From contig NZ_QREM01000009.1 of NCBI RefSeq assembly GCF_003353015.1, forward strand, positions 492,716 through 556,715: a DNA stretch of 64,000 bases, read 5' to 3'. This DNA is from Xanthomonas arboricola. Lineage in GTDB: Bacteria > Pseudomonadota > Gammaproteobacteria > Xanthomonadales > Xanthomonadaceae. The position numbers and the translations under genes are program-made. The notes under the pieces are model-generated. The model saw only the letters and a program-made list of their open reading frames with translations, was not told where the DNA came from and searched no databases. Shown here piece after piece: positions 18,427 to 43,747 of the stretch (the first letter of the stretch is position 1; each line of letters starts with the position of its first letter).

Positions 18427-19083
18427 GTGGCAAAAGAACTTACTGAAAGCAAGATCATGCAAGCTCTCGACTTCGCCTACGACAAGGCGATGACCGGTTT
18501 ACCAGGCCTCGACTCAGCCATCGAAATGGCTGACAGCTACTTGAAAGAGACGGGATCGCTTGAGGAAAAAGCCAACTCCTTGGTTCGCTGGCAAAACACG
18601 AAGGCCGCTACCTCGGGATTTTTGACTGGCTTGGGAGGTCTACTAGTCATGCCCGTGACAATTCCCGCCAATCTCGCTAGCGTCTACTTCATCCAGATTC
18701 GAATGATCGCAGCTATTGCTCACATGGCTGGCTACAATGTGCGAGACGATAAGGTGAAGGCCATGGTCTACGCATGCCTTACAGGTAATGCAGCCAAAGA
18801 AGTCTTGAAAGATGTTGGAATTCAGTTTGGAAAAAAACTGGCCCAAGCAAGCATTAACCGCATTACTGGCGCCACAATCATCAGCATCAACAAAGCTGTC
18901 GGCTTCAGGCTTTTAACCAAAGCAGGAACAACTGGCGTGGTTAATCTCGGCAAGATGGTTCCAATTTTAGGCGGCGTGATTGGCGGCGCAGTAGATTTGG
19001 CCATGACCAACATTGTCGGAAACACGGCGGTGAAGGTTTTTATTTCTGAAGAACCTGAGGCACTTGCTGCACCGGAAGCGTAG
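18427..19083 (+). CDS. EcsC-family protein
   Basis: 218 residues with the features of the EcsC family: an N-terminal helical part (ALDFAYDKAMTGLPGLDSA), a hydrophobic stretch (TSGFLTGLGGLLVMPVTIPANLASVYFIQIRMIAAIAHMAGY) and a C-terminal small-residue hydrophobic stretch (VPILGGVIGGAVDLAMT). EcsC proteins are poorly understood and often membrane-linked. The codon use is AT-richer than in the core genes, which suggests acquisition. No partner is evident except the neighbouring GIY-YIG-like gene. Confidence 0.75.
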   Translation: MAKELTESKIMQALDFAYDKAMTGLPGLDSAIEMADSYLKETGSLEEKANSLVRWQNTKAATSGFLTGLGGLLVMPVTIPANLASVYFIQIRMIAAIAHMAGYNVRDDKVKAMVYACLTGNAAKEVLKDVGIQFGKKLAQASINRITGATIISINKAVGFRLLTKAGTTGVVNLGKMVPILGGVIGGAVDLAMTNIVGNTAVKVFISEEPEALAAPEA

Positions 19084-19246: not shown

Positions 19247-19777
19247 ATGAATTTTGACGTTGCAGGCCCCTTTGAAGTTACACGTCATGGAAGCAAGAAG
19301 ATCATTACAAAGGAGTCCGCGAGGCTTCTGAAGCTAGAACTTGATGATTGGGAGGAAGGCCTATCCGACGCTTGCGGATGCTACATCTTCGGCAAACGTG
19401 CCGGGGGCGGAATCACCCCCTGGTATGTAGGCCAAGCCTGCAAAACAACGCTTCTCGGTGAGGCTTTAAATCCCACTAATATCACCAACTACAATCATAT
19501 TTTGGGGGAGGAAGGCGCAGGGATTCCTGTCCTCTTTTTCGTCCCGGCACGAACTCCCGGAGGCAAACTTCGAAAGAGGCCATCAGGGAAGCTCAAGTCG
19601 CTCTCGTTTCTCGAGAAATGGCTGATTGCAGCTGCAATCGAGAAGAACCCTGACCTGATAAATACGAAGGAAACGCGCTTCCTACGCGACCTGCATGTCA
19701 AAGGCGTCTTTAACGCTAAGCAGGGCGAGTCAACGAAACCATCAACGGCACTCAACAAGGCGCTGGGTCTTCGATAG
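19247..19777 (+). CDS. Hypothetical protein with a possible GIY-YIG-like fold
   Basis: 176 residues. The block CGCYIFGKRAGGGITPWYVGQA (about 43-64) resembles the paired GxY/YxG strands of GIY-YIG nucleases, and an acidic helix (SFLEKWLIAAAIEKNPDLINTKET, about 125-148) could carry the metal-binding Glu. The expected Arg after YVG is not obvious, so activity is uncertain. It lies in an AT-richer stretch between the EcsC gene and the sigma-factor gene of the defence locus. Confidence 0.55.
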   Translation: MNFDVAGPFEVTRHGSKKIITKESARLLKLELDDWEEGLSDACGCYIFGKRAGGGITPWYVGQACKTTLLGEALNPTNITNYNHILGEEGAGIPVLFFVPARTPGGKLRKRPSGKLKSLSFLEKWLIAAAIEKNPDLINTKETRFLRDLHVKGVFNAKQGESTKPSTALNKALGLR

Positions 19778-20117
19778 TCATATGTCAAACGTCTTCGACT
19801 ACTGATTTCAAGATCGATACGCAAGGGGCAACTCTCAGGGCTTGCACAAGCCGTGGGAGCCACTATTTAATGCAAGCGTGCTCTAGCGCAATATTTGCAC
19901 CTAAACACGGGGAGATGAGCTCATCCCCCCGCGCGCCGAGTGTAGAATTTGTATCAGTTCAAATTTGTCGAGCCGTAGTGCCCACAGGAACGAAAACACT
20001 GCTCGGACGCGGCAAGCCTACTGAGCCGAGAGAAACAGGCACTCACCCGAATTCGGATGTTGCCGATATGGCAAAGCCACACGGGTGGCGGTGGTGACGG
20101 TCCAAGATGCGTCACCA
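19778..20117. promoter_or_regulatory. Leader region of the defence locus with two dyads
   Basis: 340 bp precede the ankyrin-sigma gene, with no convincing gene. At 19909-19930 there is a strong dyad centred on the perfect palindrome GATGAGCTCATC, with flanking G and C runs. CCGAATTCGG (20047-20056) is a second perfect palindrome. Neither is followed by a T-run, so they look more like operators than terminators. The region probably holds the operon promoter; which sigma factor reads it cannot be seen. Confidence 0.4.
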
Positions 20118-22463
20118 ATGAGTCGATTTCTCAAGATCGCAGTGGTGTCTGGCGTGGAGAGCGCTGTTCAGATCCACGTTGACCGTGGGGACAATCTCAA
20201 CGCCCGCGACGAGAAGGGCCAGACCCCGCTAATGCTCTCGGCCGCGCGAAACAGGGATGCCATTTGCAGGCTGCTCTTGGCCTCAGGTGCGGATGCCGGC
20301 TTGCTTGATCCTACGGGGCGGGATGCTCTTGCCATCGCCAAGGCGGCCGGAGCGGTGGAAGCCGCATCGGCTATCGAGGCGGCTTGTCTGCGCCCCACCG
20401 GTGATAGCGTTTGCTTATCAGCACCTGACAAACCCAAGCAGCCAGGAAACGATCCTTCAAGCACGGAGCCTGTTGAAACCTTGCTCAACAATACCCCTGT
20501 CTCAGGCGAAACTACAGCGCCAGAATCTAGTGTGACGCTGCTTTCAGTGACGGTTGACGATGATCCTGAGTTCGACTTGAGCGGATGGGAAGCCGAAGAG
20601 GAGCAAAAGCCTCCTCCAGACGACTCAACCGTCGCCGTGGTAGCGATCGGCATTCAAACAGCGATCAGTGAGCATCAGCCCCTTGATACGTCCGCAGACT
20701 GGGGTGACCTGGATGCATTCCTGCCCGACCGCGCCACGCCTTTACGTCGCAAAGAAGACGCTGAGGCACGCGAGCTGCTGAGACTGACTCTGCTCCGCGC
20801 ACTTCGCGAAGGTAGCGTTCCACACTTGACCGTTGAGGATTTGACGCAAGGTGATGATCGCGAGCCCGACGCTGAAGCCTATGCGCTGCTGAGCATGGTC
20901 ATTAACGAACTTGGCGCGGAAACCGACGAGCGATTCGAATATTCAACACCCTACGAAAGCTTTGAGGTCTTCATAGATCCCGAAGAGAGTCTTGGCGAAG
21001 AGGATACAGTCGCCGAGGCGTTGGTATTCCTTGACGACCTGGCAGCCCGACGCAATGAGCCGTTGCGGATCTACCAGCGAGAACTCCAGCGGGGAACACT
21101 GATCACTGCGGAAGCAGAAGTCGCTTTGGGTCAAGCAATGGAGCGCGGTATAGAGAAAGCGCTTGACGCTCTGGCTGCCTGGCCTTGGGGGCTCAGCGCC
21201 ACGCTGGATGCGGCCCGCCAAGTTTCCAGTGGAGCCAGGCCCCTACGCTGGATTTCTTCTGGTCCGCAAGCCGGACTCCAGGAGGCTGAGCCTGTGCTCG
21301 ATGCCGAAATGGAGGCGGCCATCGGGTTGGAGCTGACTATGACCGAAGAAGAAGCCGCGAGTTCAGAAGAGGAGTCGTTTCCGCAGTTTGGTTCGGAGAT
21401 TAAAGAGTCCACCGATGACTTCGCGGAGTTTTGCACCAACTCGGAACTCTTGTCGGGCCTGAGCATCGGCACGAGACAGAACGGGCCCGCATGGGAAAAG
21501 TGCCGAAGCATCCTCGCTTCGCTAGGTCTAAGCCGTGGTTTCCTCATGGAACTTGCCACTTCCAGGATCGTTGGAGAACCTGAAACCGCACTTTTGTTTG
21601 TCCAAGCAATGCAGTCTTACCGGAACGCGCGCGACCAAATGACTGTCGCTAACTTGAAGCTTGTCTACTCCATCGCCCCCAAATACCTCTTCAGCGGACT
21701 GCAACTCGACGACCTGGTGCAGGAAGGAAACCTTGGCCTCATGAAGGCCGTGGACAAATACGATTGGCGGAGGGGGTTTAAGTTCTCGACGTATGCAACA
21801 TGGTGGATTCGTCAAGGGATCACCCGCAATGTGGCCGATAAGAGCAGAACCATCCGCATTCCCGTCCACGTCTACGAGAAGACCCGGCGCATTGCACAGG
21901 CAGTCCGCACTCTCGAGCGTCGTTACGGCCGCCCCCCGACCTCAGAAGAAATATCGGCAGCCGCGGAGCTCCGCGTCCAAGAGGTCGAAGCACTATCCCG
22001 CATCGCGCCGGAGCCACTGCCTCTTCATGAGATGACAGACATTGACGACATCATCGCCATTCATGCAAAAGATCAGTTACTTGCCCCCGACCCCGTAGAA
22101 GTGGTCGAGGATTATCAGTTCGCCCGGTCTGTTGACACCTTCTTGAGCACGCTTAAAGCCAGAGAGCAGAGCGTAATGCGCATGCGCTTCGGCATCGGTC
22201 TTGGCGCCCGAGAATCCATGACACTTGAAGAGGTCGGCAGGAAGTTCGACGTGACGCGCGAGCGCATCAGGCAGATTGAGGCCAAGGGTCTTCGGCAACT
22301 GCGGCACCCCGCACGGCTGGACAAGCTACTGATCGAGCTCGGCCTTACTTGGGCTCCAAAACCCGAAGCCTCCTCAACCAAGACGGCCAAGGGCGCCGTA
22401 TCCAAATCCAAGGAGACAACAGCCCAGACGCATGGGGAGACGGACGGACCCATGAACCCGTGA
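20118..22463 (+). CDS. Ankyrin-domain RNA polymerase sigma-70 factor of the defence locus
   Basis: 781 residues. Residues ~1-95 are ankyrin repeats ([53 protein letters not shown]). An acidic, variable region follows. Residues ~314-365 ([34 protein letters not shown]) match sigma region 1.2. Residues ~507-590 are region 2 ([39 protein letters not shown]). Region 3 follows, and region 4 (~671-735) ends with the [27 protein letters not shown] helix-turn-helix. It thus looks like a complete primary-type sigma factor. An ATG at 20118 was preferred to GTG at 20085. It heads the defence operon (170 bp before the ATPase) and, if I recall the Mza locus correctly, matches its first gene. Confidence 0.88.
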
Positions 22464-22632
22464 TGCTCCACGATCTCATGGACCAGAATTGCTTTGTATG
22501 GCAGGCCCTGAAGGACGGGGCTGGTATACCACGGACATCTATCACGAACACGACGAACGCACGTTCATACCAGTCAGTCCAGCAGCTCATCGAAATTCGC
22601 TTTGGTTACCGCTCAAGGAAAGGCTATTGGCG

Positions 22633-24126
22633 ATGAAACAAGGGACACGAAGTGCGCCACCGCGCGCGATGGCAATGCTTGAGTCCTTACGGGGTCTTGG
22701 ATACTCAACCGGAGCAGCGTTGGCAGACGTTATCGATAACAGTGTGTCAGCCGGTGCAACCGAGGTCCGCCTTGATTTCGCTTGGGACGGCGAAAGCAGC
22801 CGGATCACGATCTTAGACAATGGATACGGCATGAATGATGCCGAGCTTGAAAGCGCCATGCGGCTGGGCGAAAAAAATCCTTTGGATGCTCGCTCAGCGC
22901 ACGACCTCGGGCGCTTCGGAATGGGGCTGAAAACTGCATCCTTCTCGCAATGTCGCCGACTCACCGTCGCCACCGTGAAGGCAGGCACCAAGAGCTGCCT
23001 GCGATGGGACCTCGACGAGCTCGCTGCAAATCCCGATGGCGGTTGGCTCCTGTTCGAAGGTGCCGCAGAAGGCTCCGATCAGTTTCTTGCTGGCTTGCAT
23101 GGCAAGAAGGACGGGACCCTCGTGCTGTGGGAAGCGTTGGACCGCATAGTCACTGTCGGTTACGCCTCCGAAGACTTCCACGACCTCATTGACACAGTGG
23201 AGTCGCACTTGGCGATGGTCTTCCACCGCTTACTTCAAGGACCCAGAGCCAAGCTCAAGTTACTCATCAATGGCCGCGCAGTGTGCCCATGGGACCCATT
23301 CATGACGGGACACCCAGCGAAGCCTTGGGTTTCGCCACCAACCAACAACACCACCAGCTACGGCACGGTAACGGTGCAGGCCCACGTCCTGCCACACCGA
23401 GAAAAACTGACCGCTGCCGAGTTTGAAGACAACGCAGGCCCTGCCGGATGGACGGCGCAGCAAGGGTTCTACGTCTACCGCAACGAGCGGCTTTTAGTCG
23501 CAGGCGGATGGCTGGGACTTGGCAATTCGCGGGCATGGAATCGCGAGGAATCTCATCGCCTGGCACGCATACGCCTGGACATACCCAACACCGCCGATGC
23601 TGACTGGAAGATAGATGTTCGTAAATCGACGGCCCGTCCTCCTTTGTCGCTTCGCCCCTGGCTGACTCTTCTAGCAGAGAACACACGCGAACGTGCTCGG
23701 CGTGTCTTCGCTTACCGCGGAACCCCAATGCCCGCAAAGGGGAACGTCCCTATCGAACAAGCCTGGAGAGTAGAGAGGGTCAAGGCAGGCACGCGTTACC
23801 GCATCGACGAGGCACATCCATCAGTAGCGGCAGTCCTGGAAAGCGCAGGAACGCTCGCGCCCCTGGTGAAGTCGATGCTTAGGGTGATCGAAGAGACCGT
23901 GCCCGTGCAGCGCATTTGGCTGGATACCGCTGAGAACAGGGAGACACCACGCACGGGGTTTGAGGGAGAACCAAACTCGGCGGTTATCGAGGTCGCTAGC
24001 GTGCTCTTTGACGACCTTGTTGAACGCAAGGGCCTAAGCGTTGAAGAAGCGAGGAAGTCAATGTTGCGCACGGAACCTTTCCAGAAGTATCCGGCCCTGG
24101 TTGCAAGCCTAGGGGAAAAGAAATGA
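22633..24126 (+). CDS. MORC/MutL-like GHKL ATPase of the defence locus
   Basis: 497 residues. The Bergerat ATP-binding fold is clear: ALADVIDNSVSAGA (about 26, motif I with Asn), DNGYGM (about 61, G1) and GRFGMGLKTAS (about 93, G2). A transducer-like middle and a C-terminal part specific to this system follow. Such ATPases clamp on DNA through ATP-driven dimerisation; Iyer and Aravind placed this branch in R-M-like loci as relatives of eukaryotic MORC. The ATG at 22633 has AAGGAAAGG upstream; the frame is open further but is less likely used. Its TGA overlaps the next ATG, so it is coupled to the Z1 gene. Confidence 0.9.
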   Translation: MKQGTRSAPPRAMAMLESLRGLGYSTGAALADVIDNSVSAGATEVRLDFAWDGESSRITILDNGYGMNDAELESAMRLGEKNPLDARSAHDLGRFGMGLKTASFSQCRRLTVATVKAGTKSCLRWDLDELAANPDGGWLLFEGAAEGSDQFLAGLHGKKDGTLVLWEALDRIVTVGYASEDFHDLIDTVESHLAMVFHRLLQGPRAKLKLLINGRAVCPWDPFMTGHPAKPWVSPPTNNTTSYGTVTVQAHVLPHREKLTAAEFEDNAGPAGWTAQQGFYVYRNERLLVAGGWLGLGNSRAWNREESHRLARIRLDIPNTADADWKIDVRKSTARPPLSLRPWLTLLAENTRERARRVFAYRGTPMPAKGNVPIEQAWRVERVKAGTRYRIDEAHPSVAAVLESAGTLAPLVKSMLRVIEETVPVQRIWLDTAENRETPRTGFEGEPNSAVIEVASVLFDDLVERKGLSVEEARKSMLRTEPFQKYPALVASLGEKK

Positions 24127-27041
24127 CTACAGCAGAAGAGGCAGCCGCTCAGATCCAGTTGCTTGAAGATGTCATCGCCACAGCGCAGCGTCTGGTCAAG
24201 GCTGAGAAAGATTCGTCCAAGATCACGCCCGCCTACATCGCGGACAGGGTAAAGCTGGCCGCCGCAATGTTTGCCAGCGATCCGCCCGTCCCATTAGACG
24301 AGGCCAAGGCGGTCTCCACGCTGATCCAGCGATTCAGTCATCGAATGGGCAAGGCCACCACCCTCAAGGACAACACGGGGCATTTTGACTGGCTCAACGC
24401 CGCGCGCAAGAAGGACTGGCACTACTGGCGTCGCTACCGCGATTATCAGGAATCGAAATTGTCGGACGTGGTCGTCGATGGTCTTGACGAAGCAACTGAC
24501 GACATCCTGGGACTCCTGGAAGACCCCTTACGCGCGGATCCCTGGGACCGTCGAGGACTCGTTGTCGGACATGTGCAGTCGGGAAAAACCAGCAACTACA
24601 CGGGTCTGATCAACAAGGCCGCCGATGCGGGCTACAAGATCATCATCGTGCTGGCAGGCATGCACAACAATTTGCGCTCGCAAACACAGATACGCCTTGA
24701 AGAGGGCTTCCTGGGCTACGAGACGACAGCGGAACGCGACGCGGGTGTTCCCATTGGCGTGGCCGCTTTCGGCGAAGACCTCAAAACCAACTCGGCAACG
24801 ACGCGGGCTGAAAACGGTGATTTCAGCAAAGTCATCGCCAAGCACTTCCACGGCATCTCGCCTGAAGAGCGACCCTGGCTTTTCGTGGTGAAAAAGCAAA
24901 AGACAGTTCTTACCGAGTTGCTTAAATGGATTCAGGCGCGCGTCGCCGACATGCCAAGCCCGTTGCTGCCCAAAGCCCCCGACTGGAAGCTCGTAACCAA
25001 GCTGCCGCTTTTGATGATCGACGACGAAGCAGACAACGCATCCGTGGATACAGGCGAGCAACCGTTCAACGAGGACGGAACGCCGGATGAGGAGCACTCG
25101 CCCAAGACTATCAACCGACTGATTCGGCAGTTGCTGCACTCCTTTTCTCGGAAGGCCTATGTCGGCTATACCGCAACGCCTTTCGCCAACATCTACATCC
25201 ACCACAAGGGGACCACCGCCCTGGAAGGGCCGGACCTATTTCCGAAGGCCTTCATCATCAATCTGGCAGCTCCATCCAACTATGTCGGCCCCGCCCGCAT
25301 GTTCGGCAAGCTGACCAAGGATGGCCGCATGGATGCCCTGCCTCTGTCGCGCAGTATCCTCGACCACTACGACCCCCAGACTCAATCAGGGTGGATGCCA
25401 CCCAAGCACAAGAAGACGCACGTTCCGGTCTATGACGGCCAAGAGACAATTCCTGAATCCCTGCGCGATGCCGTCCAGTCCTTCGCTATCGTCTGCGCTG
25501 TGCGCGACCTACGCGGCCAAGGCAACGAACATAGTTCCATGCTGATCCACGTTACCCGCTATGTGGCAGTGCAGGACCATGTGCGGGAGCAGGTCGAAGA
25601 AGTCGTGCGACGCATGCGCCAGAAGATCACCCGGAGTAGCGACACAGAAAATTTGCTCGCGCAAATGCGCAAGCTTTGGGACGAGGACTTCATGCCAACC
25701 CGCGATACGGTCGCCGAGCTCTCGCCGGCCGAAGAGCGACCTCACGAGCTTCCTTCCTGGGAAGAGGTTGTCGCAAAGCTGCCCGACGTTCTCGGCGATA
25801 TTGTGGTGCGATCGATCAACGGCACCGCAAAGGACGCGCTGGACTACGCCACGCCTGGCGCGGCCCTCAAGGTCATCGCGGTCGGCGGCGACAAGCTCGC
25901 TCGGGGCTTGACCCTTGAGGGCCTTTGCGTGAGCTACTTCGTCCGCACGACGAAGATGTATGACACGCTGATGCAGATGGGCCGCTGGTTCGGCTACCGG
26001 CCGGGCTACCTCGACCTCTGCCGGCTTTACACTTCGCCAGATCTTGTGGAGTGGTTCGGCCACATCGCCGACGCATCCGAAGAACTGCGCGAAGAGTTCG
26101 ACTTCATGGCGAAGGCCAAGCTCACGCCAGAGCTATACGGCCTCAAGGTCATGTCGCATGAGATTCTCACGGTCACATCGCCCCTGAAGATGCGTAACGC
26201 CCAGACGCTGTCTCTAAGCTACAGCGGCACTCGCCCTCAGACGATCCTCTTTCACCGTAGTGCGGCCATCCAGGAGGCAAATCTTGCCGCGACCGACTCA
26301 CTGATCGCATCACTCGATACAGAGTTCGAGGATGAACCCAGGTATCTGCGTGACGGCGAGGCTGAATCCTGGCCAGGAGCGCGCCTTTGGCGGGACGTGG
26401 ACGCCTCCAAGGTGCTTGCGTTCCTCGGAGCCTACACAACCCACCCAAATGCCACCAGCGCCAAGGCTGCGGTGCTATCGGATTTCATCTCCAAGATGAT
26501 CGATATCGGCAAGCTGAAGCAATGGAGCGTCGCGCTGTTGTCCGGCGGCCAAGGCGTTGGTGAGCCTCACTCGTTCCCGGGTGGATTCGAGACGGACACG
26601 CTGCAAACTCGTAAGACTGATGACCCCGAGTCAGGGATGAAAGACCCGACAATGTTCACCATCGGCGTTCTCACCGACCCGAAGGACGAGGGCATTGATA
26701 TCAACGACGAAATTTGGCGAGATGCCCTCGCCCGAACACAGGCAGCCTGGAAACCCGACCCGGCGCGAGAGCGGAAGGATCCACCCAAGAGTCCCAGCGG
26801 CAGAGGTATCCGGGAAGCGCGGGACCGGCTTGGAGGCGATGCGGATCGGGGCTTGCTGTTGCTTTACACGCTTGCTCCATACAAAGGCAAAGAAAAGCTA
26901 GCGGAAAACCTGATTGTGCCAGGATGGGACAAACCCATAATGGCTTTCGCCATCGCTTTTCCTTCAGCCGAGAACACGATTCGCGTCGAATATGAAGTGA
27001 ATCTTCTCTACTGGGAGCAGGAATATGGCCCGTCCGAGTAA
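24123..27041 (+). CDS. Z1-domain superfamily II helicase-like ATPase
   Basis: 972 residues. Walker A is GHVQSGKTSNYTGL (about 148), Walker B is LLMIDDEADNASVD (about 298) and motif III is YVGYTATPFANIYI (about 345). The Z1 domain holds the later helicase motifs, GGDKLARGLTLEG (about 587) and QMGRWFGYRPGY (about 617, arginine finger region). Z1 proteins are found with MORC-like ATPases, PD-(D/E)XK nucleases and AIPR and are thought to move on or remodel DNA. The ATG overlaps the ATPase stop (ATGA), and its end overlaps the next gene by 17 bp, so this is one operon. Confidence 0.93.
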   Translation: MTTAEEAAAQIQLLEDVIATAQRLVKAEKDSSKITPAYIADRVKLAAAMFASDPPVPLDEAKAVSTLIQRFSHRMGKATTLKDNTGHFDWLNAARKKDWHYWRRYRDYQESKLSDVVVDGLDEATDDILGLLEDPLRADPWDRRGLVVGHVQSGKTSNYTGLINKAADAGYKIIIVLAGMHNNLRSQTQIRLEEGFLGYETTAERDAGVPIGVAAFGEDLKTNSATTRAENGDFSKVIAKHFHGISPEERPWLFVVKKQKTVLTELLKWIQARVADMPSPLLPKAPDWKLVTKLPLLMIDDEADNASVDTGEQPFNEDGTPDEEHSPKTINRLIRQLLHSFSRKAYVGYTATPFANIYIHHKGTTALEGPDLFPKAFIINLAAPSNYVGPARMFGKLTKDGRMDALPLSRSILDHYDPQTQSGWMPPKHKKTHVPVYDGQETIPESLRDAVQSFAIVCAVRDLRGQGNEHSSMLIHVTRYVAVQDHVREQVEEVVRRMRQKITRSSDTENLLAQMRKLWDEDFMPTRDTVAELSPAEERPHELPSWEEVVAKLPDVLGDIVVRSINGTAKDALDYATPGAALKVIAVGGDKLARGLTLEGLCVSYFVRTTKMYDTLMQMGRWFGYRPGYLDLCRLYTSPDLVEWFGHIADASEELREEFDFMAKAKLTPELYGLKVMSHEILTVTSPLKMRNAQTLSLSYSGTRPQTILFHRSAAIQEANLAATDSLIASLDTEFEDEPRYLRDGEAESWPGARLWRDVDASKVLAFLGAYTTHPNATSAKAAVLSDFISKMIDIGKLKQWSVALLSGGQGVGEPHSFPGGFETDTLQTRKTDDPESGMKDPTMFTIGVLTDPKDEGIDINDEIWRDALARTQAAWKPDPARERKDPPKSPSGRGIREARDRLGGDADRGLLLLYTLAPYKGKEKLAENLIVPGWDKPIMAFAIAFPSAENTIRVEYEVNLLYWEQEYGPSE

Positions 27042-28041
27042 CGAATTCCTTATGGCTTGGTCCTCGCTCTCCAGTGCCGAAGCCGACCCTGGATGGCAAG
27101 CCATTGCACTTCCCTCAGCCGGGCTTCTTCAGCTGCGCGCCGGCCGACGGTCTCCGGACAACGCAGAGGCAGTATTGGTCTGCTTTCCTACCGCGAAGCC
27201 TGCCCCTGCGGACAAGCTACCCGAAGGCCAGGGTTTTGCGATTGAGCGCGCAGACCCTGAAGGCAACGGCAAGCTCTGGCTAGCGTTGACCCGTAAGTCA
27301 GCGGGCAGTTCAGAGGTATTCACTTCGATGGTGTGCGATGTCGTCGGCGCACTCGACGAAGCAGTTGCGGCAGGCTTTGATGAAATGAAACTTTTGCGAG
27401 CGTTTATCGGACGGGTAGGAGCTTGGCAGGAGTTCATGCGCAAGGGCGCGCAGGCGCTCAGTCCCGAATCTGAAGTCGGCTTGATTGGCGAGCTCACTTT
27501 GTTGAAAGCGATCTTCGAATCCGGCGCGCCTGAGGCTTCGGCCACTGAATCCTGGGTGGGACCGCTCAACGGCGTTCAGGATTTTGAGATTGGCGGTGGC
27601 GCCATAGAGGTGAAGACGACCCTCTCGGTGACGGGCTTCCCAGCAAGGATCGGCTCTTTGGAGCAGCTCGACAACTCCACTCGTCAGCCTCTCTTTCTAG
27701 CTGGAGTTCGGCTGCGGAAAACAGAGAGCGGTCAGAACTTGCCAGGCATCATTGAGGCAATACGGCAGACCATCAAAGGCAGTGCTGAGGCAGAGAGGCT
27801 ACTTTCTGAGCGCCTGCTGGCCGCCGGCTACATTGACTCTCACCTTGACCACTATTCACGTAAGTTTGAGTCAGCTGGCACAAGGATCTTTGAGGTAACA
27901 GGTAACTTCCCTCGCATGACTTCAGGCACGGTCCCGGCAGGCATCATGAAGGCCATGTATGAGATCGACCTCGAAAAGGCATCCGGGGAGAACGTCAGCA
28001 TCGAGACAGCACTGAAAAAACTGGGAGCAATCCAAGAATGA
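27025..28041 (+). CDS. PD-(D/E)XK motif protein (DUF4420-like), probable nuclease subunit
   Basis: 338 residues. The nuclease-type core is visible: SEVGLIGELTLLKAIF (about 150-165, conserved Glu), then GVQDFEIGGGAIEVKTT (about 183-200), giving the D...ExK signature. This is the PD-(D/E)XK-motif family placed by Iyer et al. in the MORC-Z1 loci. It is the most likely DNA-cutting subunit. It overlaps the Z1 gene at its start and the AIPR gene at its end (ATGA), so the three are probably made in fixed ratio. Confidence 0.87.
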   Translation: MARPSNEFLMAWSSLSSAEADPGWQAIALPSAGLLQLRAGRRSPDNAEAVLVCFPTAKPAPADKLPEGQGFAIERADPEGNGKLWLALTRKSAGSSEVFTSMVCDVVGALDEAVAAGFDEMKLLRAFIGRVGAWQEFMRKGAQALSPESEVGLIGELTLLKAIFESGAPEASATESWVGPLNGVQDFEIGGGAIEVKTTLSVTGFPARIGSLEQLDNSTRQPLFLAGVRLRKTESGQNLPGIIEAIRQTIKGSAEAERLLSERLLAAGYIDSHLDHYSRKFESAGTRIFEVTGNFPRMTSGTVPAGIMKAMYEIDLEKASGENVSIETALKKLGAIQE

Positions 28042-29807
28042 ATCTGCCTGAATTCCTGCGTGAAACGCAGGCCACCGTCCGCTCGCAGATGCGAGATGGT
28101 GCGCTGTATGAAGAACTGATTTTTTCAGGCATCGTGATGGACCACATGTCGGACATCGGCATGACTTTCGAGCCGGTCGAGTGCCATTTCGAGGGGAGGG
28201 TCGGCTCTGCAAACCTTCGCTTGAGCGGCTATTCGCTCTCGGATGAAAACGAGCAGCTTGACCTGTTTGTGAGCCTCTACGCCAACGTCGATGTGCCCAC
28301 ACCGATCCCCGATGCGGAAACCAAAACCGCTGTCGAACAATGCCTGCGCTTTCTGACGTTGTGCGCTGAAGGCAAGATGGCGCCCAAGCTGGACCCGTCG
28401 AGTGATGTGCGCTCGCTGGCCGAGACACTACATGCAATCTACAACGATCTGGAGCAGGTTCGCGTCTACGTCATCACCGACCGCGTTGCCAAATCAAAGA
28501 GTTTCAAGACGCGCGATATCGGCGGCAAGGCGGTTCGTCTGGAGGTCATGGACATCGAGCGGCTCCACCGACACTGGTCTGAAGGCAAGCCGCGTGACGA
28601 GCTGGTAGTCGACTTCACCGAAGTCTCTGGCGCTCCCCTCCCCTGCGTCTTCGTGCCAGGCGAGAACGATGATTACGACTATGCGCTCACGGCGATACCT
28701 GCAGAGGCACTACGGCTGCTTTACGAGAAGTTCGGCGCACGCTTGCTTGAGGCCAATGTTCGCTCCTTCCTGAGCGTCAAGGGTAAGGGCGTTAACGCTG
28801 GCATTCAAAACACATTGCGGTATGCACCAGAGCGATTCATGGCCTACAACAACGGCATCGTGATCGTGGCAGATGAAATGCACCTGGGTAAGCCAGGCGA
28901 TGGCTCCACCGGCATCGCTTGGCTCAAGGGTCTGCAAATCGTCAACGGAGGTCAGACCACCGCGTCGATCTACTTCGCAAAGAAGAAACACGCCGACACT
29001 GACCTCAGCCGCGTTCGGGTGCCTGCCAAGATCATCGTGATGCGTGCCCAGGACTCTGCCAAGGAGGAAGCACTGGTCTCCGACATTTCACGTTTTGCCA
29101 ATAGCCAGAACGCTGTGCGGCAATCGGACCTGTCCGCCAACAAGCCCTTCCATGTTGAGATCGAAAAGCTCTCGCGCACGGTCTACTGTCCCGATGGCGT
29201 GAGCCAGTGGTTCTACGAACGTGCCTCAGGCAGCTACAACACCCTACTGGCACGCGAGGGAACCACGCCAGCAAAACTCAAGGCTTTGAAGGATGCCATT
29301 CCGCCAGCACGCCGCCTCACAAAAACGGACTTGGCAAAATACATCACCGCTTGGGAGAAAAAGCCTGACATCGTCAGTCTCGGCTCTCAGAAAAATTTCG
29401 ATAGGTTTATGGCTGGGCTGACACCCGCCGATGGGCAAGAGGCACCACTGCCGACGGTCGCAGACTTCAAGGCCATGATTGCAAAAGCCAAGATTTATCT
29501 GGACGCCCAGAAGCTTCTGCGGCCGATGTTCCAGGCCTTTCAAGCCAATGTCACTGCCTATACGGTTTCGCTGGTGGCCGAAAAGCTTGGCGACCGTTTC
29601 GATTTTGATCGTGTCTGGGCCAAGCAGGCCGCATCGCCTGAGCTACTCGCTCAAATTGCCGTATGGGCCAGAGAGGTCAACGACGTGCTGCATTCCTCAT
29701 CCGGAGGAAGGATGGTTTCCGAATGGGCGAAGCGACCGGAATGCAAAGAGGCCGTGATGGGCGCAAGCTACTCTGCTCCGGCAACCAACATCCCCGAAGT
29801 GAAGTAG
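28038..29807 (+). CDS. AIPR-family abortive-infection protein
   Basis: 589 residues. The AIPR (abortive infection phage resistance) domain spans the middle, with the typical elements LLEANVRSFLSVKGKGVNAGIQNTL (about 235-260), FMAYNNGIVIV (about 268) and LQIVNGGQTTASIYF (about 298-312), and later SDISRFANSQNAVRQSDLSAN. The N-terminus (1-170) is a separate alpha/beta part with acidic patches. The biochemical role of AIPR in these loci is not settled. The start overlaps the stop of the preceding gene. Confidence 0.92.
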   Translation: MNLPEFLRETQATVRSQMRDGALYEELIFSGIVMDHMSDIGMTFEPVECHFEGRVGSANLRLSGYSLSDENEQLDLFVSLYANVDVPTPIPDAETKTAVEQCLRFLTLCAEGKMAPKLDPSSDVRSLAETLHAIYNDLEQVRVYVITDRVAKSKSFKTRDIGGKAVRLEVMDIERLHRHWSEGKPRDELVVDFTEVSGAPLPCVFVPGENDDYDYALTAIPAEALRLLYEKFGARLLEANVRSFLSVKGKGVNAGIQNTLRYAPERFMAYNNGIVIVADEMHLGKPGDGSTGIAWLKGLQIVNGGQTTASIYFAKKKHADTDLSRVRVPAKIIVMRAQDSAKEEALVSDISRFANSQNAVRQSDLSANKPFHVEIEKLSRTVYCPDGVSQWFYERASGSYNTLLAREGTTPAKLKALKDAIPPARRLTKTDLAKYITAWEKKPDIVSLGSQKNFDRFMAGLTPADGQEAPLPTVADFKAMIAKAKIYLDAQKLLRPMFQAFQANVTAYTVSLVAEKLGDRFDFDRVWAKQAASPELLAQIAVWAREVNDVLHSSSGGRMVSEWAKRPECKEAVMGASYSAPATNIPEVK

Positions 29808-29856
29808 ACACCTGGCACCGAACTACATGCACCGCACTGATTTCTTAAAATAGCCT

Positions 29857-30315
29857 ATGGTTGATGTTGTCTCCCCCGCCGACCGCAGCCGGATGATGGC
29901 AGGCATCAAGGGCAAGAACTCGCAGCCAGAGGTTCTTGTCCGTCGGCTGCTGTTCGCTTCCGGCTATCGCTTCCGACTTCACAGACGCGACCTGCCTGGC
30001 ACTCCCGACATTGTCATGCCAGGTCGCAAGGTCGCTATCTTTGTCCACGGTTGTTTTTGGCACTTTCACGAGGGGTGCAAATACGCAAAGATGCCCGCCA
30101 CACGTCCAGAGTTCTGGAGAGCCAAGCTTGAGGCTAACGTTGCGCGTGACCGTCTCGCAGTCGATAGGCTTCGATCATTAGGCTGGAGAATTCTGTGGGT
30201 TTGGGAATGTGCGACTCGCAATGCCGAATCTGTTTCAGGATTGCAGGTGGCAATGAGCTCTTGGATCGAGAGCGGTGAGCCGCTCGGCGAAATCGGTGTT
30301 TCGCGGAGGGAATGA
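29857..30315 (+). CDS. vsr: Very short patch repair (Vsr) endonuclease
   Basis: 152 residues. Vsr nicks next to T:G mismatches that arise when 5-methylcytosine deaminates. The motifs are complete: the N-terminal DRSRMMAGIKGKNSQPE, LPGTPDIVM with the catalytic Asp at about 51, and FVHGCFWHFHEGC with the His and Cys metal/structural residues (about 62-74). It follows the AIPR gene by 49 bp and converges on the cytosine methylase, which would create the lesions it repairs. Length is normal for the family. Confidence 0.93.
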   Translation: MVDVVSPADRSRMMAGIKGKNSQPEVLVRRLLFASGYRFRLHRRDLPGTPDIVMPGRKVAIFVHGCFWHFHEGCKYAKMPATRPEFWRAKLEANVARDRLAVDRLRSLGWRILWVWECATRNAESVSGLQVAMSSWIESGEPLGEIGVSRRE

Positions 30316-30388
30316 GAAGTTTGCCCGAACGCTGAACAACCCGAATGCTGCATTTTTGAAGAGGCATGCTAGCCGCCACTTCCTAGCG

Positions 30389-31954
30389 CTATCCCCGTCG
30401 GCGAGGCGCCGTCATGACGGCATAGATGATTTCGGCAATCTGCTTGGCAAGTAGTGGCGGGACCGCGTTTCCAATTTGCCCGTATTGCTCGGTGCGATTT
30501 CCTTCAAAGAAATAGTTGTCGGGAAAGGTCTGCAGACGCGCAGCCTCGCGCACCGTCAAACTCCGACACTGCGAAGGATCCGGGTGAATGTAGTAATGGC
30601 CATCCTTCTTGATGTGGGCCACAACCGTAGACGAAGGATATTTCCCCATCTGGACCCGGAAACGATCCTTGAAGGGAATCGTTTCCTGGTCTACGTTCAA
30701 ATGGTCTGGTAGGAGCTTCGGCGGGAAGTTTCGCAGGTCCGGTGCATATTCCTGCGTGGCAGCGAAACACGCCGCAAACATGTAACGATGCAGGTCAGAA
30801 CGCATGTGGCTGCGCGTCTGGTGCTGTAGGACGCCACCGACCTTGGAGTCCAGATACCACTCCTGCAACGGCTGGGGCATGTGCCCACCTGGATTAACCT
30901 CCGCAGGGATGAAGTTTGCTCCGAAAGTTGTATGCCTCTCAGCCTTTTTAATGAACTTCTCCATGGCCGCCTCGATGTCGCTGCGCACAGGACGGTGCCA
31001 TCCTTTAAGGGACTGCGGCGCCTCCCGCAACGCTTTCATCCAGTCCTCTTGCGAGTCCGGTTCTCTGGAGAGGCGGCTTCGCAGCGCTGGCAAACCAGCA
31101 AGCGCGGCACTCACACCCACTTTCTTCGCCACCTTTGTGAGAAGAAAGCGTTCGTGGTCTTCAACCAACGCCGGTTTGGCGTCAACCACGTCGGAGCGGA
31201 TGCCAAACAGGATGACTCGATGGCGGCTCTGGGGGATGCCATGATCATCCGCCTCAATCACGTAGTCGTTGGGATCTAACTCCCCTTTCTTTTTTTGGAC
31301 CACGAGAGATCTGATTTCGTAGCTCAGACCATCACGTGGTGCTTTGAGGTCAGCAAGGATTTTCTCGAAAATGCGCTTGCCGGAGTTCATGGAATTGAGC
31401 ATCCCCTTGACGTTTTCCATGACGAAAACAGCCGGGGCGAACTCTTGAATGATCCGCAAATACTCGGTGTAAAGGAAATGCTTGGCGTCAGCCTCGAACT
31501 TCTCCGGATCCTTGCTACGCAGGCGCGAGCGACCGGCCAGCGAATAGGCTTGGCACGGCGGTCCACCGATAAGCACCCAGTCAGTCTCATTGCCTAGGGC
31601 CTCCCGAATCCAACCATCTATTTCCTTCGGCGGAGTTACGCCGAGCTCCGCGCAGCGCGCTTCCTGAGCAGCGTGCTCAGCAGCTTCCTTCACATCCGGG
31701 TGCGAGAGGAATTCGTCCCGGGTGATTTCTCCGCGGACATATTCGTAGTAGCAGCTTGGAACTTTGCCTTTCGGAAATTTGCGGAAGATCGCCCGCAATA
31801 GCAGCGTCCGGTGAGCAATGGGGTCTTTCTCTACGGAGACCTTGACAGCAAAGTGCCGCTCACCAGCCTTATCGAAGATGGAGGAAAAGCCTTCGCACAG
31901 CCCCCCTGGCCCGGCGAACAGGTCGATCACCGGAATAGCTCTGCGTCCCGACAT
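30389..31954 (-). CDS. dcm: DNA (cytosine-5) methyltransferase
   Basis: 521 residues, longer than the usual ~330-450. The C5-methylase motifs are intact: I DLFAGPGGL (11-19), IV GGPPCQAYS (about 130-138, catalytic Cys), VI MENVKG (about 180), VIII PQSRHRV (about 245) and X QIGNAVPP near the C-terminus. The variable target-recognition region between VIII and X is large. It converges on vsr with a 73-bp gap and should mark the host DNA so that the neighbouring ATPase-nuclease complex spares it. The recognition sequence cannot be read from the protein. Confidence 0.93.
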   Translation of the reverse strand: MSGRRAIPVIDLFAGPGGLCEGFSSIFDKAGERHFAVKVSVEKDPIAHRTLLLRAIFRKFPKGKVPSCYYEYVRGEITRDEFLSHPDVKEAAEHAAQEARCAELGVTPPKEIDGWIREALGNETDWVLIGGPPCQAYSLAGRSRLRSKDPEKFEADAKHFLYTEYLRIIQEFAPAVFVMENVKGMLNSMNSGKRIFEKILADLKAPRDGLSYEIRSLVVQKKKGELDPNDYVIEADDHGIPQSRHRVILFGIRSDVVDAKPALVEDHERFLLTKVAKKVGVSAALAGLPALRSRLSREPDSQEDWMKALREAPQSLKGWHRPVRSDIEAAMEKFIKKAERHTTFGANFIPAEVNPGGHMPQPLQEWYLDSKVGGVLQHQTRSHMRSDLHRYMFAACFAATQEYAPDLRNFPPKLLPDHLNVDQETIPFKDRFRVQMGKYPSSTVVAHIKKDGHYYIHPDPSQCRSLTVREAARLQTFPDNYFFEGNRTEQYGQIGNAVPPLLAKQIAEIIYAVMTAPRRRG

Positions 31955-32247: not shown

Positions 32248-33657
32248 TTAGAGGGTCATCCGCGGACCTTGCTCTTGCTGCGTTGTCTGTTGCTGTGTCT
32301 GCTCCATCTGCTGCTGGCGCACTTGGTCCTGCTTGATGACCTCGGCCTGCTGCAGGTTCTGCTGGGCAGGCTCCTGGGAGGCCTCCCGCCCGTCTACATG
32401 GGCATGGAAGAACGGTCCTTTGTCCCCGAAGGGCGCATAGATCGCAACGACGTTCTGAGCACCATTGTTCCCTAGGCCTCCGGTCACCCGGTCCACCCGT
32501 TGCAACAGCGAGTCTTCGGCTTGCTGCTTGTAAAGCGACGCCGACACGTTCCGGCTTTCTTCATCGTTCCAGTTGCCCGTGCCCCGAACCCAGGAATGGA
32601 TTTGCTGGTAGGTGGAGTGGTCAGGGTGAGCGGGATTGTCGGCCAGCACCTGCGAAGGCGATCGAAGCGAGGGGGGCTCAATGTCCGGGCGATGCTGGGC
32701 TGGGCCCAGTTGGCGCACTTCCACCTCCCGCTGCTGACCATGAGAGGTATCGACGAATCCGAACGCCTTGCCCTGCCCGCCCAAGTTCAGCCCGGCTCCC
32801 TCCAGCTTCGCTGTATCGGTGCCGAGCTCTGCGAGGTTGTAACCCAGCCGCGGCAAGGCCTGGGTCGTCGAGCCTGCGCGATCTTTCAGCAACGCAGCCC
32901 CCGCACTCACGGCATAGCCCGCGTAGTAGCCGGCGTAGTTGGAGGTGCCCTGACTCCCCATACTGCTGTCACTTCGGTCGAAGTGACAAACGGCGACCGC
33001 TTCCACGGCAGGACTGGAAATACTGTTTCCGGTTCGTTGAAGTCCGCGCTCGTCCAAGTAGATGCCCGGCTCAAGCTTCCCGTCTTTCACGCAAGCGGTT
33101 GTCGGCTCGACGCGACGTAGGAACTCGGCTTGATTGAACTCGCCTGTGGTCGTCGTCACCCGGCTCGCAACAGCATTCATGCTCACCAACTCGGCCAAGG
33201 CTTCGTTTTGCCGAGCGGAAGCCATGTATTCCTTGGACGGCGCCGTCGCATCAACAACCGATTCACCGTATTGGACGCCGTCCTTTAGAGCGGTATCGAG
33301 CTTGAATACGAAGGTATTCAAGGAAACCTGCGCCGACGGTGCCATCAGCGCATGCCCGGTCTCGTGCCCCAACGTTCCCGCCAACATGTCCAAGCGGTCG
33401 GACCGAATGGACGGCGCGAAAATCGAGGTGTTGATGCTGACGGTGCCCGTCCTGTCATCGTAGTGCCCGCCCTCATTCGGCTGGTTGGACACTTCCAGGC
33501 GACGGAGGGTGCCCAGATCGATGGCTTGGGTCATGACCGAAGCAAGGTAAGGCGAAGTATCTATGGCTTCACGGAGGTCACGCATCGCACCTTTGGGGAG
33601 GCCCGGCTGCCGCTCCAGGTCCTGGAGCAACCGGTCAATGTCGCGCTGATCAGCCAT
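32248..33657 (-). CDS. Probable T4SS effector: HETGH metallopeptidase-like domain plus XVIPCD tail
   Basis: 469 residues. Residues 98-102 read HETGH in MLAGTLGHETGHALMAPS, a zinc-protease HExxH motif; a third ligand may lie in EALAELVSM (about 162). The C-terminal ~120 residues (LADNPAHPDHSTYQQIHSWVRGTGNWNDEESRNVSASLYKQQAEDSLLQRVDRV..., then VVAIYAPFGDKG) and the Gln-rich end match the XVIPCD, the secretion signal of effectors injected into rival bacteria by the Xanthomonadaceae T4SS. The ATG at 33657 overlaps the end of the lipoprotein gene by 8 bp; the longer frame start at 33765 is less likely. It may cleave a periplasmic or cell-wall target, but the substrate is unknown. Confidence 0.85.
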   Translation of the reverse strand: MADQRDIDRLLQDLERQPGLPKGAMRDLREAIDTSPYLASVMTQAIDLGTLRRLEVSNQPNEGGHYDDRTGTVSINTSIFAPSIRSDRLDMLAGTLGHETGHALMAPSAQVSLNTFVFKLDTALKDGVQYGESVVDATAPSKEYMASARQNEALAELVSMNAVASRVTTTTGEFNQAEFLRRVEPTTACVKDGKLEPGIYLDERGLQRTGNSISSPAVEAVAVCHFDRSDSSMGSQGTSNYAGYYAGYAVSAGAALLKDRAGSTTQALPRLGYNLAELGTDTAKLEGAGLNLGGQGKAFGFVDTSHGQQREVEVRQLGPAQHRPDIEPPSLRSPSQVLADNPAHPDHSTYQQIHSWVRGTGNWNDEESRNVSASLYKQQAEDSLLQRVDRVTGGLGNNGAQNVVAIYAPFGDKGPFFHAHVDGREASQEPAQQNLQQAEVIKQDQVRQQQMEQTQQQTTQQEQGPRMTL

Positions 33658-34357
33658 CACGCGGCTCCATTTCGAGCCTGACCCGCGAAACGCAGTGTGG
33701 GTCCTCGTGCTTGTCCGTGCTGACGACAACATACAAGCCAAGCCCGTCTGCGAGTGCTCGCTCAAAGTAGACCGTCGGTTTGAAGCCCACCGCGTTCTTG
33801 GTCACACCGAACCCGGCTGCAACCAATGGGTCATGCAGTGATTTAAACGACAGGTCGCAGGCCTCGGACGGCCGCACGGTCAGCTCGATGGTGTGCCCAG
33901 GATGACGCGCGTAAGGCTTCCACACAGCGAACTCATAGTGCCCCGCACCTAGTGCGCCCTGGAGCCCTGTGCGCCGCCCTTGACTGTCTGGCGTCACCTC
34001 AAGTCCTGACACCTGCGCAACGTGAGTCGGGGCCATGTCTACTGTGGTTTCGAAAGATTTGGCCATTCGAACGATGGCCTCGACCAATGCAGCTGACGTT
34101 AGCGCCGGGCCTTGCGGCAATGGGGGGTAATCGCCAGACACCACAGCATTGGGAGCGGCTCGCCGGGTGGCCTCGTCTGCAGCCCTGTCCGCACTAGCAG
34201 CGGCTTTGTCTTGCGCGGAGCGCACGTCTGCAGCGCTGGGGGGATGTCCTTCCATTGTTTTCTCCTGAGTGCCTTGGCTACTCGCCGGCCCTTGAGCACA
34301 GGCCAGCGTCCCTAACGAAAGAGTAAGCACGACAATGCTGCGAATCAGTAAGCGCAA
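33650..34357 (-). CDS. Putative lipoprotein, candidate immunity protein for the T4SS effector
   Basis: 235 residues: MRLLIRSIVVLTLSLGTLAC gives a lipobox (TLAC), then a Ser/Ala-rich charged linker (about 28-75) and a globular domain (about 85-235). It lies directly upstream of the XVIPCD effector and overlaps its start by 8 bp. Immunity proteins of this effector class are commonly lipoproteins encoded beside the effector, so this is probably its antidote in the periplasm. That is inference from position and export signal; the fold is not recognised. Confidence 0.75.
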   Translation of the reverse strand: MRLLIRSIVVLTLSLGTLACAQGPASSQGTQEKTMEGHPPSAADVRSAQDKAAASADRAADEATRRAAPNAVVSGDYPPLPQGPALTSAALVEAIVRMAKSFETTVDMAPTHVAQVSGLEVTPDSQGRRTGLQGALGAGHYEFAVWKPYARHPGHTIELTVRPSEACDLSFKSLHDPLVAAGFGVTKNAVGFKPTVYFERALADGLGLYVVVSTDKHEDPHCVSRVRLEMEPRDG

Positions 34358-34698: not shown

Positions 34699-35178
34699 CT
34701 ATGCCCACCCCCTGCTGGCCAAGCTGACGCTCTTCTGGCCACCGATGACCAGGTGGTCGAGGACCCGGATGTCTAAGAGGCCCAGCGCTTGCTGCAGGCG
34801 CTCGGTGACCTTGCGGTCCGCTTCGCTGGGCTCCGGATTGCCCGAAGGGTGGTTATGGAAAATGATGAGCGCGACCGCGTTGAGCTCCAGCGCGCGCTTG
34901 GCAACGACTCGACTATGGACTTCGCAGCCGTCGATGGTGCCGCTGAAGAGATGCTCGGTTGCCAGGATGTAATGTTTATTGTCCAGGAAGACGACACCGA
35001 AGACTTCGTGCGGCAGGTGAGCGCAGCGGGCAACCAGGTAGCTGCCGGCCTGCTCCGGGCTGTGGATCCGACCTTGGCGCTGAAGCCGCCCTTCGAGGAT
35101 GCGGGCTGCTGCGAGCAAAATACCCGCCTCGTCCATCTGGAGTTGATACTGGACTGCTCGGTCTTGGGTGCGCTTCAT
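34699..35178 (-). CDS. radC: RadC/JAB-domain protein of mobile-element type
   Basis: 159 residues. The JAB/MPN metal site is visible as HNHPSGNPEPSEAD (about 108-121), with the upstream Glu-containing strand GVVFLDNKHYILATEHLF and the EVHSRVVAKRALELNA helix. It lacks the N-terminal helix-hairpin-helix of chromosomal RadC, which is normal for the short copies found on islands and prophages. The function is unknown despite the name. GGAGAAG precedes the chosen ATG at 35178; a longer frame start at 35319 is rejected. Confidence 0.88.
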   Translation of the reverse strand: MKRTQDRAVQYQLQMDEAGILLAAARILEGRLQRQGRIHSPEQAGSYLVARCAHLPHEVFGVVFLDNKHYILATEHLFSGTIDGCEVHSRVVAKRALELNAVALIIFHNHPSGNPEPSEADRKVTERLQQALGLLDIRVLDHLVIGGQKSVSLASRGWA

Positions 35179-35569
35179 CGGTTCTTCTCCACCAGCGCGT
35201 TGTGCGCCTCGTGGGAACCGGCAAGCGAAGCGTCCGGCCCTACCGCACCCGGGAGTGAGCACCGTTAGGCGCGCAGCGGAGGGCCGCAACAAAGCGCCAG
35301 CGTCGAGAAGGAGGCTCACCCTTGCGGCGGGGGCAGCGAAGCTAAGGTCCCTTCCAGAGGCCCAGCGCTGGTGGAGACAGCACCATGCATGCCCTACAAG
35401 GCCTGCGGGCTAAACGGCATTCGGATGGGAGGGGGTGATCGATGTCAGCAGGCGGCGCCTGGGCTTTGCAGCCAGTGGGGCTTCTGCGGACCTGTGCCTG
35501 CCTTACGCACGCATCGCTGCGCAGGAGAAGCACGCAGGCATCGGGATGGGCTGGTCGACCCCAACGGGC
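35179..35569. other. Intergenic, nothing recognised
   Basis: About 390 GC-rich bp lie upstream of radC. Several overlapping open frames exist on both strands, as expected at this base composition, but none has a ribosome site and plausible protein sequence together. Confidence 0.4.
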
Positions 35570-40083: not shown

Positions 40084-40442
40084 GTTAGTTAACTCCTGTC
40101 TTCGGCTGCATCATCTACCGAAATAATACTAACATCCGAGCAAACCATTTAGGAACAGTACACCTTAAAAGCTAACATAAAGACTGCTTTAGTTAGCCTA
40201 TTTGCATTAAACAGTACAGTAATGACAGGGTAAATCACTCTAAATTATTCCCCAGCACGCCGCTAAACCATTGAATTACATGAGACTTCCGCACTTAAAC
40301 CAGACAGAATAATTTTGGTGGAAGTTCGAGCCAGCCCTTCACGGTAGAGTTTGCTTCAAGCAAAGTAAAAAACTGCCCTTTTTGATTGACGAATTTCTGG
40401 GCTGTTTTATCACTACTTCCATTGTTCCAATGGAAGCAAGCC
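40084..40442. other. AT-rich divergent intergenic region
   Basis: About 360 bp, clearly more AT-rich than the surroundings (TTAGTTAGCCTATTTGC, TCTAAATTATTCC). It separates the 39625-40083 gene from the integrase and probably holds promoters for both, and perhaps recombination sites of the second element. No gene is recognised. Confidence 0.45.
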
Positions 40443-42937: not shown

Positions 42938-43518
42938 GGATCCCTCATTAGATAAACGTCCTGTATCTCTTCCGCCATCTGAATGCTGGGCACAAGCGGG
43001 CCCTTTTTCAAGACTCGAACCATCCTGATCGCACCGCTTTGACCCAAACCTACCTTGACCTCGTAGAGCTTCCACCCCAGCACGATCAACAAAGGGTTCA
43101 TCAGAATCTGGCCAGAACGATAAGTGATGAGGAAGAGCACAACCCAAAAGACCAAGAAGCCGCCGAGCTTTTGGGGATCAGCATAGCTAAGCCCCATAAA
43201 AGACACCACGTAAGGAAGCACGTAGTTGATCAGGTCATTGGGAATCGCCTTGACCTCTTGCACGTGCACGCGATGCGGGAGACGAACCGAGCGCAGTGCA
43301 ACCACCATCAAAAGCAACGCCCCAAAAGTCACCGCTACAGTCCCCCACGCCAACCACGGATGGGCAAGGATCTGGAACTGGCAATTCCATTGCCCTTTCC
43401 AACCGCATAGTGGTGCCTTCCAGTATTTGGTGGCGATGTCTTGAACCATCAAAATAACAGCTAAAGGCAGGTAGGAACCTAGAAAAAGCAACACCGCTGA
43501 CCAAAACTGGAACTGCAT
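42934..43518 (-). CDS. kwaA: KwaA-like membrane protein of a Kiwa defence pair
   Basis: 194 residues with four hydrophobic helices (about 5-25, 50-75, 103-118 and 125-150) and a soluble C-terminal tail. KwaA is the four-helix inner-membrane sensor of Kiwa, thought to notice phage attachment and act with KwaB. The start at 43518 is preceded by AAGGAAGGAG at good spacing; the longer frame start at 43569 is rejected. It lies directly before the kwaB-like gene with a 4-bp overlap. Confidence 0.75.
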   Translation of the reverse strand: MQFQFWSAVLLFLGSYLPLAVILMVQDIATKYWKAPLCGWKGQWNCQFQILAHPWLAWGTVAVTFGALLLMVVALRSVRLPHRVHVQEVKAIPNDLINYVLPYVVSFMGLSYADPQKLGGFLVFWVVLFLITYRSGQILMNPLLIVLGWKLYEVKVGLGQSGAIRMVRVLKKGPLVPSIQMAEEIQDVYLMRDP

Positions 43519-43747
43519 GCATTCGGCTCCTTCCTTCATTGACACCATTGTCTCGAATGCGGTTCGCACAGCATGAGAAGCTACTCTAGCTGTAAGCCGA
43601 GGAGCCAGCCTTTAGCTCTCGATCTGAAAGTCGGAGCCTTTGGGGATGCAATGGCACAGCCCTATCGTGTGCAACGGCGCCGTCCTGACTTTCAATGGCA
43701 GGCCGACACGTAGGCAATGTAACCAAGAGGGACTGGAGCATCGCTCT

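Follow-up and report, generated by a model that had tools for sequence, protein, structure and literature searches.

The closest described counterpart of the locus reported here is the antiviral Mza system, reportedly described by Gao et al. in 2020 as the gene set mzaABCDE. The literature searched, which covers few subscription journals, offered no study of how Mza works. A further Mza-related system in the literature has the same core genes, with MORC often associated and mzaA in a few cases; it is reportedly ∼20% identical to mzaBCDE and mostly sigma-less. A third type of MORC restriction operon was described as carrying a MORC motif, a superfamily II (SFII) helicase with the motif DThhQXuRhFG, a nuclease of the restriction endonuclease fold, an AIPR protein, a cytosine methylase and Vsr (Iyer, Abhiman and Aravind 2008, PMC2292703). 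The same gene set, with the MORC and helicase motifs present and a putative nuclease of that fold, was found in a 64,000-nucleotide stretch of Xanthomonas arboricola DNA (assembly GCF_003353015.1, contig NZ_QREM01000009.1, positions 492,716 to 556,715), which is called the window throughout. The examined portion of that description mentions no sigma factor, whereas the locus in the window has one, MzaA.

The first-pass annotation of the window had proposed a seven-gene locus of ankyrin-sigma70, MORC, Z1, PD-(D/E)XK, AIPR, Vsr and convergent Dcm, and the genes were found to be real and nearly as claimed, each being named by Pfam and PADLOC. The first gene, mzaA (20118..22463, + strand, 781 aa), encodes ankyrin repeats (residues 1–91), a disordered linker, a region 1.1/1.2-like part, and sigma2, sigma3 and sigma4 (PADLOC MzaA 1e-80; Pfam Ank and sigma70). 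It is followed on the same strand by mzaB (22633..24126, 497 aa) for a MORC-family GHKL-S5 ATPase (PADLOC MzaB 4e-197; HATPase_c_3 3e-31), mzaC (24123..27041) for the SFII helicase, likewise named by both databases, mzaD (27025..28041, 338 aa) for a DUF4420 PD-(D/E)XK nuclease-like protein (PADLOC MzaD 1e-57; DUF4420 1e-75), and mzaE (28038..29807, 589 aa) for an AIPR protein (PADLOC MzaE 6e-213; AIPR 1e-91; AIPR_N 2e-46). MzaA, B, C, D and E are neighbours in that order on one strand, with PADLOC matches of 1e-57 to 2e-300. A Vsr-type mismatch endonuclease (29857..30315, + strand, 152 aa; TIGR00632 148.5 bits, exceeding the cut-off of 97.85) and a convergent C5 cytosine DNA methylase (30389..31954, − strand, 521 aa; DNA_methylase 4e-44; TIGR00675 141.5 bits, exceeding the cut-off of 100.65) complete the locus. 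The overlapping or abutting junctions claimed for four of the genes were seen as ATGA at B/C and D/E and as a 17 nt overlap at C/D; mzaA stands apart from mzaB by 169 nt.

The profile search against PADLOC and Pfam that the first-pass annotation had proposed gave matches for all of the proteins, including those to AIPR, DUF4420 and HATPase_c_3. In addition to the five PADLOC matches, the NCBIfam MZA models NF041931–NF041935 matched all five Mza proteins over most of their length, in agreement with the Mza identity claimed before, though every score was below its curated cut-off (493.5/800, 773/850, 1139.5/1500, 354.1/420 and 919.1/1050 from A to E). The window proteins are Mza-type, yet lie outside the NF041931–NF041935 equivalogs; because all five scores are under the curated cut-offs, the locus is related to the named Mza system but has diverged from it. 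In common with Mza it has the five proteins, arranged in the same sequence, and an MzaA that joins ankyrin repeats to a sigma70 part; a C5 methylase and Vsr come after mzaE, a comparison based on the MzaA–E profiles. Its strong matches to the Mza profiles, again a comparison by profile, would set it apart from the ∼20% identical system. The suggested kinship with the set of Iyer et al. also stood, as the MORC and helicase motifs, AIPR, Vsr and the C5 methylase were all found. We regard it as firm that the locus belongs, as a divergent member, to the known Mza system; the role of its sigma factor we infer. The best reading of the locus, which we hold at slightly less than even likelihood, is a methylation-partnered nuclease and ATPase machine whose own sigma factor would tether it to RNA polymerase.

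Relatives were collected by a contig scan with an MzaB alignment, and the best 80 of 454 genome loci were used; 40 viral-contig loci (IMG/VR), 5 plasmid loci and 12 further genome stretches were added to these 80. Relatives are labelled L0xx–L2xx, and G000 is the window's own genome. When 398 genomes of the phylum were searched with a profile, MzaB was detected in 20 of them, the own genome counted (E 1e-30 or better).

It was found that the sequence of MzaA aligns to RpoD over regions 1.1 to 4.2, and that positions 4–710 of the 726-position NF041931 profile align to MzaA residues 3–737 (the 493.5 bits given above), which places the ankyrin-sigma70 build along most of its length. This build had been correctly described by the first-pass annotation, which overlooked the frameshifted C-terminal tail discussed below. 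Under a strict filter both ankyrin motifs were present in 40 of 78 MzaA, a provisional count, as near misses were often seen among the rest and some starts had been poorly chosen. In the structure model of MzaA, the predicted local distance difference test (pLDDT) score was 80.1 overall and 94–98 in the ankyrin part, and Foldseek matched it to E. coli RpoD/sigma70 in holoenzymes at ∼1e-17; the overall TM-scores (template modelling scores) were low, as expected because the domains are loosely joined. In a joint alignment of 80 MzaA and 30 RpoD, on which all contact-residue counts are based, Q406, W434, Q437, R584, E585, R586, R588 and Q589 (E. coli numbering) were kept in 80/80 MzaA, and D403 and R441 in 79/80. 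We take these positions of E. coli RpoD to be contacts to the polymerase clamp and to the −10 and −35 elements. Among the RpoD-invariant positions, conservation in MzaA averaged 0.93 for 20 contacts and 0.68 for 111 others (p 1.5e-6, the positions not being independent). Judged from sequence, this contact pattern is the mark of selection on a working sigma factor. What is new here is that the predicted MzaA is built like a primary sigma-70, with contact residues better kept than other RpoD-invariant positions.

MzaA is nevertheless distinct from RpoD. Regions 1.2 to 4.2, the contact residues and the −35 reading helix are shared with the primary sigma70; MzaA differs by its N-terminal ankyrin repeats and a short non-conserved region, by the lack of a conserved region 3.2 finger and by the frequent replacement of T440. 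It also scored under both RpoD equivalog cut-offs (323.6/555 and 255.5/354). Region 3.2 had seemed decayed compared with RpoD, and a dead sigma factor was considered; in that earlier comparison 25 of 82 MzaA open reading frames (ORFs) dropped out through a poor motif filter. The idea was dropped, as 20 RpoH control sequences, taken from 30 loci, also have no conserved finger. A search of the own genome with MzaA returned RpoD-, RpoH- and FliA-like sigma factors (assigned by eye), and among the sigma factors returned no RpoS look-alike was recognized by eye.

The likeness to RpoD could also mean that MzaA guards the host sigma70 or serves as its decoy, such that phage anti-sigma factors or polymerase takeover would hit MzaA and release the enzymes. 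MzaA copies the RpoD contact residues and has a model similar to holoenzyme-bound E. coli RpoD, but its conservation drops in regions 3.2 (0.31) and 4.1 (0.50), and it follows MzaB less closely in Mantel-type locus distances (0.46) than MzaD (0.79) and MzaE (0.73) do, as for an arms-race sensor. All of this support is indirect, however, and the loss of the region 3.2 finger does not single MzaA out, since a conserved finger is missing from the RpoH control too. We consider the guard or decoy unlikely.

A conserved box, TGTAGAAT, which contains a −10-like TAGAAT, was found before mzaA in the window (19941–19948, + strand), where it leads into an imperfect inverted repeat GAATTTG-N8-CAAATTT; the whole element (19941..19966) is a candidate promoter or operator of the operon. 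When up to 400 nt upstream was searched in loci with at least 150 nt, TGTAGAAT was the commonest shared 8-mer, present on the plus strand in 16 of 75 loci and on the minus strand in 1, against a mean of 0.34 and a maximum of 2 across 50 random draws from the same loci. Four extra loci (L066, L074, L081 and L083) have the box 391–937 nt ahead of the MzaA open frame, and a WYL-domain regulator gene lies between box and mzaA in two of them (L081:6993-7583, Pfam 2.6e-11; L083:1358-1951, 2.1e-13). TGTAGAAT looks like a promoter, whoever reads it. A leader ORF of 39–42 codons follows the box in about a dozen loci, its sequence overall not being conserved. In raw counts that leave four weak cases aside, residue 440 of MzaA was G or S in 16 of 20 cases with the box, and T in 31 of the 56 that lack the box. 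Reading of the box by an altered residue 440 was rejected, as the ancestry-corrected pairs were unsupportive (same way 2, other way 0.5, of 6 pairs).

The box bears on the possibility that MzaA is purely a transcription factor, which would turn on the mza operon, and perhaps vsr and dcm, from its own promoter while the enzymes defend without it. The sigma and promoter residues kept in MzaA and the −10-like box before mzaA suit this account, and the distant boxes, with the WYL gene behind them in L081 and L083, suggest that the box behaves like an operon promoter. But the box is absent from most sigma-bearing loci and shows no covariation with residue 440 after ancestry correction, and MzaA has the −35 reading helix of RpoD, which gives no hint of promoters of its own kind. 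Moreover, mzaA and mzaB overlap in 55 of the 81 loci scored, which fits a subunit produced together with the enzymes, and the ankyrin part likewise favours a subunit. A pure transcription factor is thus judged to be rather improbable.

A quick MzaB tree of 110 sequences, with support from the Shimodaira–Hasegawa-like approximate likelihood ratio test (SH-aLRT) and without bootstrap, placed the sigma-bearing systems in one clade of 90 rows (SH-aLRT 100); long branches make its deep joins unsure, and gain and loss of the sigma factor are not distinguishable from it. Four rows of the clade have no sigma factor, two truly (L102 and L112) and two by contig ends (L080 and L108). Measured from stop to stop, the MzaE frame was 686–763 aa in all of the 22 sigma-less loci but two, L102 and L112 (608 aa), and 590–622 aa in 63 of 77 sigma-bearing loci, with 4 at 684 aa or more and 2 short. 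Measured from the start codon, MzaE was 657–718 aa in those 20 sigma-less loci and at most 609 aa in the other 79. The difference is a C-terminal extension of ∼90 residues, present in the 20 sigma-less loci (including L116–L118, L030–L032, L217 and L219–L224) and missing from the sigma clade, as though MzaA had taken the place of a part. Also new here is the grouping of the sigma-bearing systems in a single clade whose MzaE is shorter.

Plasmid-borne Mza-type loci (L028–L032) were seen in Thalassospira, Neorhizobium, Ensifer, Rhizobium and Agrobacterium, and MzaA is present in L028 and L029. Mza-type genes also stand on IMG/VR viral contigs (L113–L115 and others), and some such loci may be carried by prophages.

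The motifs of the enzymes were well kept. The MORC-specific motif GhXhhpXXRhl in the S5 domain was present in 86/86 MzaB, the helicase motif in 82/84 MzaC, and the pattern D-x(4-9)-ExK, which covers the D and ExK of E-D-ExK, in 78/81 MzaD, the window being included each time. The MzaB profile matched MutL and MORC structures (3e-7 to 1e-3). For MzaE (model pLDDT 84.8), the best E against solved structures was 0.8 by sequence, no fold match reached E 0.001 or better, and the weak fold matches held restriction-type nucleases among unrelated ones. Against viral models, MzaE matched AIPR (1e-12) and, weakly, GmrSD N-terminal proteins (∼0.005–0.01); no active site could be assigned.

The constancy of the methylase and Vsr was evaluated in a full-flank set, the 51 of the 80 loci with at least 4 kb upstream and at least 9 kb downstream of MzaB, which are related to each other and are not 51 independent events. 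A methylase of the 520-residue type was found in 43/51 and another C5 methylase type in 5 more, giving 48/51 with any; MzaA was present in 49/51 and Vsr in 46/51. The second type was initially chosen by eye and its profile built from the same loci; by Pfam, all five other-type enzymes and that of L028 are C5 methylases. The methylase motifs GGPPCQ and ENV were present in 58/62 and 56/62, window included. As background, of 100 genomes of the phylum, 26 carried a Vsr and 56 a C5 methylase at any position in the genome. It is new here that a C5 methylase and Vsr are near-constant neighbours of the relatives' loci. The own genome also has a second C5 methylase (C21:237740-239470) with Vsr, ∼2.4–2.9 kb from rpoD (241883-243793).

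Methylase and Vsr might still be an independent neighbour, a restriction-modification remnant in a defence island outside Mza, and some of the points that favour this weigh at the same time against the methylation-partnered machine. The methylase has no fixed position or strand among the loci, and an annotated restriction endonuclease lies near it in L028 and L029. In locus distances (56 to 84 loci per protein pair), Dcm tracks MzaB less (0.40) than MzaD and MzaE do and is closer to Vsr (0.61); the values against MzaB for MzaC and Vsr were 0.60 and 0.27. In the available DNA of three full-flank loci (L033, L053 and L065) no C5 methylase was found. An independent neighbour is, however, hard to reconcile with C5 methylase and Vsr frequencies far over the genome background, or with the C5 methylase in many sigma-less relatives, which in L030, L031, L032, L102 and L112 stands directly upstream of mzaB on the same strand. 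We rate it as rather unlikely. Free swapping of the methylase, also considered, is true only in part, 54 of 62 Dcm falling within one loose cluster.

The part given to the sigma factor meets objections of the same kind. T440, a −12 reader, is T in just 34/80 MzaA; L102 and L112, which are close relatives, and the wider relatives fetched have no sigma factor, so the Mza core can exist without it; and in the window a frameshift has cost MzaA its tail domain, and mzaA stops short of mzaB. In the methylation-partnered machine, MzaA would link the Mza enzymes to RNA polymerase and the nucleases and ATPase would work with C5 methylation as partner. A more specific form, restriction via transcription, is on the unlikely side: the MzaA holoenzyme at ordinary sigma70 promoters, or reporting phage capture of the polymerase, would pass DNA to the MORC clamp, the translocase and the nucleases, which would act only at sites that lack the partner C5 methylation.

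The lost tail was located in an ORF in another frame (22349..22636, + strand). Searched by tblastn with the relatives' MzaA tails (E down to 1e-7), its homologous part spans ∼22535–22633, past the MzaA stop, ending in RKGYWR and finishing in ATGA on the mzaB start. At least 100 residues follow the sigma4 helix in 36 of 78 MzaA, the window being among the 78; a domain of ∼65 residues is common to most, and in 23 of the 36 the last residues are GYWR or similar. The NCBI model, with its 726 positions, has no room for such a tail past sigma4. A long in-frame tail is absent from the other 42, of which 3 (the window, L058 and L067) have it split off as a separate ORF and 39 are without any tail found, so tail loss need not kill the system. 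A programmed frameshift was rejected, as the three split cases shift in differing directions, which argues against a conserved signal. The out-of-frame tail, with the separate ORFs in L058 and L067, might indicate that the window copy is decaying and the system on its way out. That 42 of 78 MzaA have no long in-frame tail and just three are visibly split, that neither the sigma part nor any of the other six ORFs is broken, and that a sequencing error is a possible cause of the frameshift, all make decay distinctly unlikely.

Around the locus, an EcsC-family protein (18427–19083, +) matched the PADLOC candidate PDC-S29 (5e-87), and an ORF at 19247–19777 (+) is GIY-YIG-like by eye, with no Pfam match. 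Further out lie a large RHS-repeat protein (8943–13715, −), a MobA/MobL relaxase (15484–17076, −) and RadC (34699–35319, −). A protein at 32248–33765 (−) carries the X-Tfes XVIPCD domain (4e-10), which marks type IV secretion effectors of Xanthomonadales and gives a clue to the host group. Kiwa genes (42008–43569, −; KwaB PADLOC 7.5e-129, KwaA 1e-75) are flanked by integrase genes (40386–41834 and 46601–48079), with a tRNA-Ser at 48164–48253, and the Kiwa region is probably a tRNA-borne defence island.

For Mza-type systems, the conserved contact residues of MzaA offer sharp point mutants, and the one sigma clade, in which MzaE is shorter, is a place to seek the contact. The constant C5 methylase and Vsr suggest examining Mza together with the methylase. 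If restriction via transcription were true, promoter opening would be the trigger of the system and methylation the mark of self.

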